Shown: in pieces, positions 43,062 to 48,315 of the stretch
How positions within the stretch are numbered: the first letter of the stretch is position 1
How the letters are laid out: every line of letters begins with the position of its first letter
Assembly (NCBI RefSeq): GCF_037094495.1
Contig: NZ_CP146612.1
Coordinates: forward strand, 434,001 to 498,000
Direction: 5' to 3'
Length of the DNA: 64,000 nucleotides
Source: Dehalogenimonas sp. W
GTDB lineage: Bacteria > Chloroflexota > Dehalococcoidia > Dehalococcoidales > Dehalococcoidaceae
Notes under the pieces: model-generated
The model's input: only the letters and a program-made list of their open reading frames with translations
Database searches by the model: none
What the model was told of the DNA's origin: nothing
Position numbers and translations under genes: made by a program

Positions 43062-43121
43062 TAGGTAAATCGTCCTATTTTTCAAAGCCGGCAACGACAG
43101 CACGGAAAATATATTTTGATT

Positions 43122-43149
43122 TTGACCTCGCCGCGCAGGGTAATATAAT
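43122..43149 (+). promoter_or_regulatory. Promoter copy 1 upstream of the leader RNA
   Basis: TTGACC at 43122-43127, 16-bp spacer, TATAAT at 43144-43149, in the first copy of the tandem repeat. Confidence 0.6.
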
Positions 43150-43240
43150 TTTTACTTAAGAGACAGATATGTGTGGGTTTAATAACGGTACTAACTTCCT
43201 TTCCAAGCCAGCGACGGCAGCGCGGAATACTATTTGTATT

Positions 43241-43268
43241 TTGTTCTCACCGCGCCGGGTAATATAAT
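43241..43268 (+). promoter_or_regulatory. Promoter copy 2 upstream of the leader RNA
   Basis: TTGTTC at 43241-43246, 16-bp spacer, TATAAT at 43263-43268, in the second copy of the tandem repeat; the -35 box has diverged. Confidence 0.5.
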
Positions 43269-43319
43269 TTTACTTAAGCGAAGAATATGTATGGATTTAA
43301 TAACGGTACTAATCAATCA

Positions 43320-43349
43320 TTGACAGTGTTAAAACAGCGGTGTTACAAT
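43320..43349 (+). promoter_or_regulatory. Promoter of the structured leader RNA
   Basis: TTGACA at 43320-43325, 18-bp spacer, TACAAT at 43344-43349. Start expected near 43356. Confidence 0.75.
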
Positions 43350-43355
43350 CTCCCC

Positions 43356-43552
43356 GATTTCGCATGGTGCGCGATGCCTCTTCGAGTTCCGGTATCTAAC
43401 GTCAGGTCAGTGATCACGATGCCGGTGCCGAAAAGCCGCAAGGCTTTGAGGGTGTGGGTGGAAACGCCGACACCTCCCGATTGGAAAGGAGAGTCTGGTC
43501 ATGCATAAAAATATGATATTTGAAGACGCCCTCAGATGAGGCGTCTTTTTTA
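43356..43552 (+). ncRNA. Structured leader RNA/riboswitch candidate before the cytochrome-hydrogenase operon
   Basis: About 195 nt with promoter at one end and an intrinsic terminator at the other, and no credible reading frame. Visible helices: CCGGTATC (43390 region) with GATGCCGG; AAAGCC-GCAA-GGCTTT at about 43431-43446, a GNRA-capped stem; GGTGT-x-GGTG-GAAA-CGCC-x-ACACC at about 43451-43474, a second GNRA-capped stem; CTCC with GGAG. The layout promoter, folded RNA, terminator, then gene resembles a riboswitch or attenuator, but the core motifs of cobalamin, TPP, SAM, Moco, fluoride and glycine classes known to me do not match. Family unknown. Confidence 0.6.
43523..43552 (+). terminator. 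Intrinsic terminator of the leader RNA
   Basis: AAGACGCC pairs with GGCGTCTT around a 9-nt loop that itself contains CTCA/TGAG; TTTTTTATTT follows. The cytochrome gene begins 52 bp later, so read-through would be required to express it from the leader promoter. Confidence 0.88.
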
Positions 43553-43603
43553 TTTCCCGGAAGTTGTCCCAACCAACAAACTAGACACAGGAGAGGTGAA
43601 TTA

Positions 43604-44188
43604 ATGAAACACAAAAAAGCCCTTTACGCGGTTTTCGCCTGTCTGCTGGTGCTGTTACCGGTTTTAAGTGCCTGTACCCAGGACACCGAGGAACCAGCGC
43701 CGACAACGACCAACCCGCCCAATAATGAAGAGGCCCTGTTGCCCGAGACTCCGGGAATTGACGCAACACTGGTCTATGCCAGTCAGTGCGCTTCCTGCCA
43801 CGGCACTAATCGCCAGGGCGGCGTCGGCCCCGGTTTAACCAAGAATATCACTATTGCCTACCTGAGTCAGTGGGTACCGACCCACCGCACCGGCGTCCAA
43901 CTGGACCCGCGTCTGGCCAATTCCCTGATTAACTGGTTGAAGGTTAATTCCACCGTTTCCACCGTCCCCCAGCCCACCGAACCGGCTTTCGTGTACGCCC
44001 TTAACTGTACCGTCTGCCACGGTGCTACCCGTTCCGGCGGCAACGGCGGCCCGTCTATTAAACCGGATAACCTGACCCGGCTGACCGAAGGCTTCCTGGC
44101 GATTTTCCTCCAGGGGCATTACAAAGGCGTAGACCTGGTTCAGGATCAGCGGGATGCCCTGGCTGAATGGCTGAAAGCTACCCCGTAG
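43604..44188 (+). CDS. Diheme c-type cytochrome, lipoprotein
   Basis: 194 residues: signal with lipobox LPVLSAC, Thr/Pro linker, then two cytochrome c-like domains with CASCHGTNRQGG (about 65-76) and CTVCHGATRSGG (about 140-151). Each repeat ends with an LxxWLK helix, indicating an internal duplication. ATG 43604 is preceded by GGAGAGGTG. It lies 60 bp before the hydrogenase small subunit on the same strand and is the obvious candidate electron acceptor for that enzyme. Confidence 0.88.
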   Translation: MKHKKALYAVFACLLVLLPVLSACTQDTEEPAPTTTNPPNNEEALLPETPGIDATLVYASQCASCHGTNRQGGVGPGLTKNITIAYLSQWVPTHRTGVQLDPRLANSLINWLKVNSTVSTVPQPTEPAFVYALNCTVCHGATRSGGNGGPSIKPDNLTRLTEGFLAIFLQGHYKGVDLVQDQRDALAEWLKATP

Positions 44189-44248: not shown

Positions 44249-45217
44249 ATGGATATTGCTAGCCTGAGAAAACCTGAACTGACCCGCCGGGATTTCATGA
44301 AAGTCGCCGGTATGACCGCCGCCTACTTCGGCATCAGCCAGGCGCTGACGCCCCAGATTGTCCAGGCATTGGAGAATAATGCGGGTAAGGCTGCGGTTAT
44401 CTGGCTGGAAGGCCAGAGCTGCACCGGTTGTACCGAGTCCTTCCTTAATAACCTGGAACCCAGCGCCACCTCCATCCTGCTGGATACCATCTCGCTGCGT
44501 TACCACGAAACTGCCATGGCGGCTTCCGGCCACCAGGCTGAGGCCGCCCTGCAGGCGACGATCGCCGAGGGCGGTTATGTCCTGGTTATTGAGGGCTCAA
44601 TCCCGCTGGCGGAAGACGGCGCGTTCTGCACCGTGGCCGGCAAACCCTTCACCGAAATCGTCCGCGAGACCGCCAAGAACGCCGCCGCTATCATCTGTGT
44701 CGGCGCCTGCGCCACCTACGGCGGCATCCCCCGCTCCGGCCCGACCGATGCCGTGGGTTACTTGTTCCGCGGCAAGGAACTGCATCACTACTTTGATGAT
44801 GTCGGTGCCAAGCCGGTCATCAATCTGCCGACCTGCCCGCTCCATAACGAACGCCTGACGGCCACGATCGTCCACTACCTGACCTTCGGCACCGTACCGG
44901 AACTGGACCAATACAACCGGCCTTATGCCTTCTACGGCAAGATCCAGCATGACAACTGCACCCGCCGCGGCAATTATGATACCGGCCGCTTCGTCACCGA
45001 TTTCGGCAATCCCGACCAGCACGGTTTCTGCCTTATCCTGAAGGGCTGTAAGGGCCCGGTGGCCAAGCAGGACTGCTGGGATCGGAAGTGGAACAACCGC
45101 GGCAATTACTGTATTGACGCCGGCCATCCGTGTGTAGCCTGTTCCAATCCGGAATTCTATGAAGATACCAGTCCTCTCTATGCCCATAATTATGACTTCG
45201 GACTGCCGCCGCTTTAA
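44249..45217 (+). CDS. hupS: [NiFe] hydrogenase small subunit, Tat-exported
   Basis: 322 residues. The Tat signal LTRRDFMKVAGMTAAYFG marks export in folded form together with the large subunit. The proximal Fe-S cluster motif is EGQSCTGCTESFLN; further cysteines (CVGACATYGG, PTCPLHNE, HDNCTRRG, KGCKGPVAKQDCWD, CIDAGHPCVACSNPEF) fit the medial and distal clusters of a periplasmic uptake hydrogenase. AAAGGAGAT precedes ATG 44249. No C-terminal membrane helix is present, so anchoring must come from a partner. Confidence 0.95.
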   Translation: MDIASLRKPELTRRDFMKVAGMTAAYFGISQALTPQIVQALENNAGKAAVIWLEGQSCTGCTESFLNNLEPSATSILLDTISLRYHETAMAASGHQAEAALQATIAEGGYVLVIEGSIPLAEDGAFCTVAGKPFTEIVRETAKNAAAIICVGACATYGGIPRSGPTDAVGYLFRGKELHHYFDDVGAKPVINLPTCPLHNERLTATIVHYLTFGTVPELDQYNRPYAFYGKIQHDNCTRRGNYDTGRFVTDFGNPDQHGFCLILKGCKGPVAKQDCWDRKWNNRGNYCIDAGHPCVACSNPEFYEDTSPLYAHNYDFGLPPL

Positions 45218-45280: not shown

Positions 45281-46891
45281 ATGACACGAATAGTCGTTGA
45301 TCCATTAACCAGAATTGAAGGCCACCTCCGGATTGAGGTTGAGGTGGAAAACGGCGTCGTTACCGATGCCTGGTCGGCCGGCACCATGGCCCGCGGCTGG
45401 GAGAACATCCTCGTCGGCCGTGACCCGTGGGATGCCCCCTATGTCACCAGCCGCGTCTGCGGTGTCTGTGAAGGTGTTCATACAATCGCCTCCAATCAGG
45501 CGATTGAAGACGCCTTCGGTATTGAACTGACTGAAGCCGGCCGGCTGATGCGTAATCTGTTCTCCGCCGGTTATTATGTCCACGACCATTTTATCCACTT
45601 CTATGTCCTCTCCGCGCTGGACTTCCTGGATATCATGGCCATCGCTTCCTATGAAGGCAGCGACCCCGGTCTGCTGGCCATTAAGAGCAAGATTGTCGGC
45701 CTGGTGGTGGCCGGAGACACCTCTCCCTTCACCCCGCGTTACACGCCCGATGAATTCTCCGTCAGTGATCCGGAGACAGTCACCACCCTGGTGTCACATT
45801 ACCTGAAGGCCGTGGAATTGAAGGCCAAATCCCAGAAAATGCTGTCCTACCTTACCGGCATTCAGCCCCATCCGAATGCGCTGATGCCCGGCGGCTGTAC
45901 CGCTACCCCCAGTGTTGAAATCCTGATGGATCTCAAGAAACTGTGGCAGGAACAGGCTGACTTTGTTAATAACGTGTATGTGCCCGATGTGATGGCGGTG
46001 GGTTATGGGCCGCTGCTGCCGCTGGCGGCGGCCGGTTTCGGCGCCACCGATGGCAACTACCTGGCCTTCCCGATGCTGCCTCAGGGCAGTTCCGCTGCCG
46101 CCGGCGATATTTCCTTCGGCGGTTCCAATCCGATGTTCCGCGGTGGTGTTATCAAGGCCTCCGGCCCGCGCGGTACCCTGACTGACATCAGCGGCCTCAC
46201 CATTGAGGACGTGGATTACAGTCAGATCACCGAGTCAGTCACCCATTCCTGGTATGATTACCCGGCCGGTACCGACGCACTCCATCCGTCCGAGGGTGTC
46301 ACCGCCTTCAATCTCAAGAAAGAAGGCGCCTACTCCTTCCTCAAAGCGCCGCGTTATGATTCCATGACTATGGAAGTTGGCCCGCTGGCCCGCGGTATGG
46401 TCAATAAGTTCCCCGCACTGGTGGACTTCTTTAACGCCGGCGGCCGCGAAGGCGTGGTCGCCCGTCACCTGTGCCGCGCCGTCATCTCCAAGCAGATTAT
46501 CAACGACGGTCTGGCCTGGATTGACCGCCTGATTGAGCTGCGCCTCAAAGGCCCGCTGGTGGGTATGAATGAAAAAGCGGTGCCCAAAACCGGCAAGGGC
46601 ATGGGCGTCTGGGATGCCCCGCGCGGCGCACTGGGTCACTGGATTGAGGTGGACAACCACCGCATCAAGAACTACCAGCTGGTAGTGCCGTCCACCTGGA
46701 ACGCCGGTCCGCGTGATGAAAACGGCGTCAAAGGCCCGTATGAGCAGGCGCTCATCGGCGCGCCGGTACCTGACCTGGACAACCCGATCAATGTAGTACG
46801 CATCATCCGGTCGTTTGACCCCTGCATTGCCTGTGCCGTCCACCTGATTGACCCGCATACCAATGATGTTAAAGTGGTCAAGGTTTCCTAG
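45281..46891 (+). CDS. hupL: [NiFe] hydrogenase large subunit
   Basis: 536 residues carrying the NiFe active site. N-terminal ligand motif RVCGVCEGVHTIASNQA and C-terminal motif DPCIACAVH provide the four Cys ligands; RIEGHLRIEVEV at the N-terminus is also conserved. The 15 residues after the final His are the extension removed on maturation. It lacks its own signal, so it is exported with the small subunit. A hairpin terminator follows, before the protease gene. Confidence 0.96.
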   Translation: MTRIVVDPLTRIEGHLRIEVEVENGVVTDAWSAGTMARGWENILVGRDPWDAPYVTSRVCGVCEGVHTIASNQAIEDAFGIELTEAGRLMRNLFSAGYYVHDHFIHFYVLSALDFLDIMAIASYEGSDPGLLAIKSKIVGLVVAGDTSPFTPRYTPDEFSVSDPETVTTLVSHYLKAVELKAKSQKMLSYLTGIQPHPNALMPGGCTATPSVEILMDLKKLWQEQADFVNNVYVPDVMAVGYGPLLPLAAAGFGATDGNYLAFPMLPQGSSAAAGDISFGGSNPMFRGGVIKASGPRGTLTDISGLTIEDVDYSQITESVTHSWYDYPAGTDALHPSEGVTAFNLKKEGAYSFLKAPRYDSMTMEVGPLARGMVNKFPALVDFFNAGGREGVVARHLCRAVISKQIINDGLAWIDRLIELRLKGPLVGMNEKAVPKTGKGMGVWDAPRGALGHWIEVDNHRIKNYQLVVPSTWNAGPRDENGVKGPYEQALIGAPVPDLDNPINVVRIIRSFDPCIACAVHLIDPHTNDVKVVKVS

Positions 46892-46973: not shown

Positions 46974-47468
46974 ATGAGTTCACAAAGCGAAACCAAAACG
47001 GAACAAACGCTGATACTGGGTATCGGCAATGTCATCATGAGCGATGAAGGATTCGGGATTCATGTACTGCGTGACCTGAAACAATACACCTTCCCCGACC
47101 ATATCCGGCTGCACGACGGCGCCGTGGCCGGTTTTGACCTGCTGGGGTATCTGGAAGGCGTAGAGCGGCTGGTTATCGTGGATGTGATGATTACCGACCT
47201 TGAACCGGGTGAGATTGGCTGGATGGAAATGGATGCCCGTTTCAACGCACCGAACAAAACCGACCTGTCATTTCACCAGATAGGCATCATTGAACTGCTG
47301 CAAATAGCCGAACTGATCGGCTACAAGCCCCGGGTCCAGTTCCTGGTCACCCGACCGGAGAAACTGGAGTGGGGTTTTGAACTGACTCCGAAGGCACGGC
47401 AGGCGGCCGATAAAGCCGTGGCTTATCTGGTGGAAAACTTCAACGGCCGCCCTGCCGCAAATGCTTGA
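46974..47468 (+). CDS. hupD: Hydrogenase maturation endopeptidase
   Basis: 164-residue protease that removes the C-terminal extension of the large subunit after nickel insertion. LGIGNVIMSDEGFGIHVLRDL at the N-terminus holds the Glu ligand; the Asp ligand is in VERLVIVDVMIT and the His in LSFHQIGI. ATG 46974 lies 82 bp after hupL. The set S-L-protease is complete for this enzyme, but no HypA-F genes are in the window. Confidence 0.93.
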   Translation: MSSQSETKTEQTLILGIGNVIMSDEGFGIHVLRDLKQYTFPDHIRLHDGAVAGFDLLGYLEGVERLVIVDVMITDLEPGEIGWMEMDARFNAPNKTDLSFHQIGIIELLQIAELIGYKPRVQFLVTRPEKLEWGFELTPKARQAADKAVAYLVENFNGRPAANA

Positions 47469-48303: not shown

Positions 48304-48315
48304 GGTACTAGTACC
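48304..48315. promoter_or_regulatory. 12-bp palindrome between divergent genes
   Basis: GGTACTAGTACC, perfect palindrome. A further GTAGTA/TACTAC inverted pair lies at 48364-48386. TTGACA at 48344 and TATAAT at 48357 are also present but too close to be one promoter. Possible repressor site for the TetR encoded at 50955. Confidence 0.4.

Follow-up and report, generated by a model that had tools for sequence, protein, structure and literature searches.

As a rule, a riboswitch regulates genes for the synthesis, uptake or use of the ligand that it binds. Among the closest described systems, the molybdenum cofactor (Moco) RNA preceding moaA in E. coli is a tested OFF switch, and a published survey of the family associates RNAs that contain helix P3 with Moco and P3-less RNAs with tungsten; hydrogenase is not mentioned in the main text of that work (Regulski et al.; PMC2408646). 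In the genus Dehalogenimonas, Moco riboswitches have been described before moaA-moaC in strains IP3-3, 4OHTPN and W, these moaAC copies being the only ones that the pangenome paper reports (PMC13390414). The same paper describes one respiratory complex of these organisms in which the Hup hydrogenase is joined by a reductive dehalogenase and by formate dehydrogenase-N, a Moco enzyme (PMC13390414). Furthermore, tandem tungsten-cofactor (Wco) riboswitches are known to precede ferredoxin and nickel/zinc-binding hydrogenase genes (PMC9481103). A report of a P3-containing RF01055 copy in front of a [NiFe] hydrogenase was not found in the literature library that was searched.

Such an arrangement is present in the stretch of 64,000 nucleotides of the Dehalogenimonas sp. 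W genome that was analysed here (the window). An Rfam covariance-model scan of the window produced three matches above the cut-off, two to tRNAs and one to the Moco riboswitch family RF01055, the latter at positions 43368-43507 on the plus strand, on which all leader elements and operon genes mentioned below are located. The match covers the full model (1-135 of 135) with 67.6 bits and an E value of 3.9e-14, which is 31 bits above the curated cut-off of 36 bits. Since a full-length match so far above the cut-off was obtained, the class of this leader is already known, and the initial annotation, which was right in recognizing the layout of a riboswitch or attenuator, was mistaken in stating that the conserved cores of known classes do not fit. 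It had also reckoned with a match to an unrelated known small RNA; a known RNA was indeed matched, yet it is a riboswitch class and not an unrelated RNA. The covariation that it had proposed as a check on the helices was detected as well: among 19 relatives, both partners have changed with pairing preserved at 12 of the 26 consensus pairs, and RNAalifold recovers P1, P3, P4 and P5 in full and P2 in part. The segment 43355-43560 folds with −75.4 kcal/mol, as compared to a mean of −62.4 kcal/mol for shuffled sequences (z −3.25; 1 of 200 shuffles equally stable), and P2, P3 and P4 all form in the minimum-energy fold. The conserved aptamer core is intact, and the score equals those of the moaA and tup copies of the same genome. 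The leader is thus almost certainly a member of RF01055, as judged from covariance and fold, and its predicted ligand is the molybdenum cofactor. A match to the RcsR1 sRNA that overlaps the terminator (23.4 bits against a cut-off of 60) was taken as chance, and a plasmid search gave no match.

In the family alignment, P1 is formed by the 5' strand CUCUUC (43378-43383) and the 3' strand GGAGAG (43488-43493), the pairs of which were checked. The P2 arm CCGGUAUC...GAUGCCGG (43390-43425; alignment and fold) has the strands CCGGTATC/GATGCCGG, which is the 8-bp helix of the initial annotation, and carries a variant tetraloop receptor. The two GNRA hairpins that had been noticed correspond to P3 (AAAGCC-GCAA-GGCUUU, 43432-43448; alignment and fold) and to P4 (GTG-GAAA-CGCC, 43450-43475; alignment, fold and covariation), the latter with the GNRA (GAAA) tetraloop that is a feature of P4 in RF01055. 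Because P3 is present, as a 6-bp GNRA hairpin, the subgroup rule (PMC2408646) places the window copy with the Moco-type RNAs and not with the tungsten-cofactor (Wco/Tuco) riboswitches, which are marked by its absence. Within the genus, the moaA leaders (L002, L010, L011, L015) lack P3 and are of the tungsten type, and the mop, tup and hydrogenase leaders possess it. In the bulge receptor of P2, the window sequence reads UCUAAC / CACGA, and relatives in the genus have CCUAA... / ...AUGG; U-A may stand in for C-G at one pair, and there are differences at other positions. A changed ligand as a consequence of this receptor change, which is common to both cytochrome-hydrogenase leaders, is not claimed, the alignment being uncertain by one column.

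According to the covariance model, the aptamer is the same as that of the E. coli moaABCDE leader (RF01055), with P1-P5 including P3, a GAAA-capped P4 and a predicted OFF direction. The window leader differs in its platform, a terminator instead of sequestration of the ribosome-binding site, and in its target, a [NiFe] hydrogenase operon. This operon, as had been annotated, starts with a cytochrome gene (43604-44188); its product is of the c type, with two hemes (two CxxCH, PF13442/PF00034) and a lipoprotein-like N-terminus. It is followed by genes for a hydrogenase small subunit with a Tat signal (44249-45217; TIGR00391 with 312.9 bits, TAT_signal), a large subunit that lies close to the group-1 enzymes of the periplasm (45281-46891) and a hydrogenase maturation protease (46974-47468). 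Neither a Moco gene nor a Moco protein is encoded in the operon, and the window copy lies outside the usual context of RF01055, which is upstream of genes for Moco biosynthesis, Mo/W transport or Moco enzymes. That context is usual for the family and is no defining structural feature; what we describe is a new copy of a known riboswitch class with an unusual target, and no new kind of thing.

The genome (1,772,240 bp in one contig) harbours five RF01055 copies, which precede moaA-moaC-MOSC, genes for a TupABC-like transporter, the gene of a 68-aa Mop protein, hupX-hupS-hupL, and the cytochrome-hydrogenase operon, respectively. Three of the five copies have standard targets, and two precede [NiFe] hydrogenase operons. 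The hupXSL operon, encoding an Fe-S protein and a [NiFe] hydrogenase, is found on the minus strand (L009 6294-9748; genome 898.4-901.8 kb), also with a P3-containing Moco riboswitch, and two reductive dehalogenase-like genes are nearby. Its leader displays no clear terminator and has some 250 nt between riboswitch and start codon; the hupXSL counterpart in congener G004 retains only a GGAAAGGAG fragment. The genome further encodes two molybdoenzymes that are FdnG/OmeA-like, and a third protein has a molybdopterin domain. Compared with the moaAC copies reported earlier (PMC13390414), the hydrogenase copies are from the same genus and RNA family, but contain the P3 that the former lack. The Wco riboswitches (PMC9481103) belong to the same superfamily and also precede hydrogenase genes, but they are tandem and tungsten-type, whereas the window copy is single and contains P3.

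Both hydrogenase types are present in all eight Dehalogenimonas genomes. Two of these (the window genome and G004) have the riboswitch before the cytochrome-hydrogenase operon, the other six having the operon without it, and in one it lies before hupXSL. The remaining type-A and type-B hydrogenase operons of these eight genomes showed no RF01055 upstream, and the same holds for 20 additional type-A relatives taken from named genomes. Each of the eight genomes has two [NiFe] small subunits, one of them in the cytochrome c operon, with Tat-like N-termini where these were read; the pangenome paper speaks of a single periplasmic hydrogenase in Dehalogenimonas (PMC13390414). In genome G135, from another family of the class, the cytochrome is missing and the riboswitch lies directly before an ortholog of the small subunit (71% identity). 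In a class sample of 343 genomes, 105 of which contain RF01055, cross-checking of positions gave no other RF01055 near HupS or PF00374 among the matches listed. A [NiFe] hydrogenase is located downstream in 4 of the approximately 89 class riboswitches whose downstream genes were read; among the other readable targets, transporters of the tup or mod kind, moa genes and molybdoenzymes predominate. Further unusual targets of RF01055 are a Fur-family regulator (L020, G003) and a FecCD-type ABC transporter (L021, G007), and closely spaced pairs of Moco riboswitches occur in other Dehalococcoidia (G135:C127:3853-4144; G114:C155; G188:C3; G208:C97).

The promoter TTGACA-18-TACAAT at 43320-43349, as given in the initial annotation, has an extended -10 TG and 11 of 12 consensus matches, and the predicted transcription start is at about 43356. 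Congeners G004 and G005 have kept this promoter as well. G005 lacks the riboswitch, both at this position and throughout the genome, so the element was acquired or deleted as a cassette lying between promoter and gene. Upstream of the promoter, at 43112-43312, there is a tandem repeat whose two copies lie about 118 bp apart, agree to 85-87% and both contain a TATAAT-like box and TTAATAACGGTACTAA; congener G004 has one such site. These copies may be duplicated regulator sites or promoters. A palindrome that looks like the operator of a regulator, GGTACTAGTACC, recurs in moaA and tup riboswitch leaders throughout the genus, where it occupies the promoter spacer, with sites at L002 ~1477-1488 and L004 ~1467-1478; the genome has just one further exact copy, at 48304-48315 of the window, close to where an SDR-family gene starts.

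The intrinsic terminator that had been proposed is clearly seen by RNA folding at 43523-43551, where AAGACGCC-C-TC-AGAT-GA-GGCGTCTT is followed by T6. An automatic terminator scan found none at the leader, which is due to the fact that it counts no bulges and allows only loops of 3-8 nt. A strand that overlaps P1, GAUGCCUC (43373-43380), can form an antiterminator of 8 bp with GAGGCGUC (43538-43545) in the 3' arm of the terminator. Since the 5' strand of P1 pairs with this arm, P1 and the antiterminator are mutually exclusive. The pairing of the P1 5' strand with its own terminator arm amounts to −16.7 kcal/mol and is better than that with any of 17 sister-leader terminators, and only 0.2% of shuffled strands pair as well. 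Whole-leader folds have −73.8 kcal/mol in the antiterminated and −75.1 kcal/mol in the terminated form, so the two states are nearly balanced. Ensemble calculations on a transcript ending at 43547 gave a ligand-free antiterminator probability of 0.35-0.45; adding 4 kcal/mol of stability to P1, to mimic a bound ligand, brings it below 0.01. Once the U tract has been transcribed in full, the ligand-free value is about 0.08, and switching would therefore have to occur during transcription. Very probably, the leader acts by transcription termination.

The direction of the response is a different matter. The window combines a terminator that is independent of the aptamer with an antiterminator that excludes P1, which is an OFF design, and in the tup leaders of the genus the 3' strand of P1 pairs with the 5' arm of the terminator, following the same OFF logic. 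The design is not reproduced in congener G004, where soft-constraint folding of the orthologous leader gave a stronger terminator, no comparable antiterminator and a gap of 15.9 kcal/mol. In the G135 leader, a terminator-like hairpin uses aptamer bases, which suggests an ON polarity in the folding model. Because of these two leaders, we infer the OFF polarity from the one window sequence with moderate confidence.

Taken as a whole, it is likely that a P3-containing, Moco-type riboswitch with a termination platform controls the cytochrome c-[NiFe] hydrogenase operon, with Moco lowering expression. The opposite sign, in which Moco switches the operon on and hydrogenase is made only if a Moco partner (formate dehydrogenase-N/OmeA) can be completed, would fit the finding that in Dehalogenimonas the Hup hydrogenase assembles with a reductive dehalogenase and with FDH-N (PMC13390414), the use of aptamer sequences by the G135 terminator and the lack of an OFF antiterminator in G004. 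It nevertheless seems unlikely for the window leader, given its separate terminator and P1-overlapping antiterminator, and the E. coli Moco RNA proved to be OFF when tested (PMC2408646). Another explanation is that the hydrogenase promoter received a duplicate of a riboswitch that is now decaying or no longer switching and serves mainly as a fixed attenuator. A score on a par with the moaA and tup copies, an intact core, a near-balanced antiterminator, and the fact that G004 keeps P1 and the terminator in spite of sequence changes make such a decayed state rather improbable, even though the element precedes the operon in only two of eight genus genomes, has a P2 receptor that departs from the genus consensus, appears to have a dominant terminator in G004, and is missing behind the conserved promoter of one congener.

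Alternatives that concern the ligand can be weighed in the same way. Recognition of the tungsten cofactor, or of either metal form, would turn the element into a reporter of tungsten status. The complete 6-bp P3 goes with Moco (PMC2408646), and within the genus only moaA leaders are without P3; thus we consider tungsten sensing very unlikely. The TupA-like transporter of the genome has its own RF01055 copy, which would agree with a role for tungsten, but its TupA match falls below the curated cut-off, and the Wco-type riboswitches reported before hydrogenase genes (PMC9481103) are a further point in favour of this ligand. The suggestion in the initial annotation of a nickel, heme, redox or H2 signal, which would require a new riboswitch class, is based only on the nature of the downstream genes and found no support. 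This candidate was rejected on account of the full-length match to an established class that binds another ligand, and sister copies precede Mo/W genes in the same genome, so that a new class has hardly any probability left.

If the preferred OFF mechanism applies, binding of Moco would close P1 at the expense of the antiterminator, the terminator would form, and the hydrogenase operon would be turned down. A shortage of Moco would let the antiterminator form, transcription would continue, and hydrogenase levels would be raised. A Moco-dependent formate dehydrogenase and the Moco-independent hydrogenase both feed electrons into the same respiration. Respiratory balancing suggests itself as the logic because the hydrogenase itself is without Moco, and in view of the shared respiratory complex a Moco signal could serve to balance Moco-dependent against Moco-independent electron entry. 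That hydrogenase is raised for the sake of this balance when Moco runs short is a tentative proposal. Similarly tentative is the wider idea that Moco supply acts as a cross-pathway signal that chooses between formate and H2 for electron entry, OFF or ON depending on the lineage, with two hydrogenase operons wired to it.

Thus, a P3-containing Moco riboswitch precedes, twice in one genome, enzymes that neither make nor use Moco. Bacteria of this kind are used in the cleanup of chlorinated solvents. If the leader works as folded, the level of Moco would be a control point for hydrogen-driven respiration, and the supply of molybdenum would be predicted to change hydrogenase levels.
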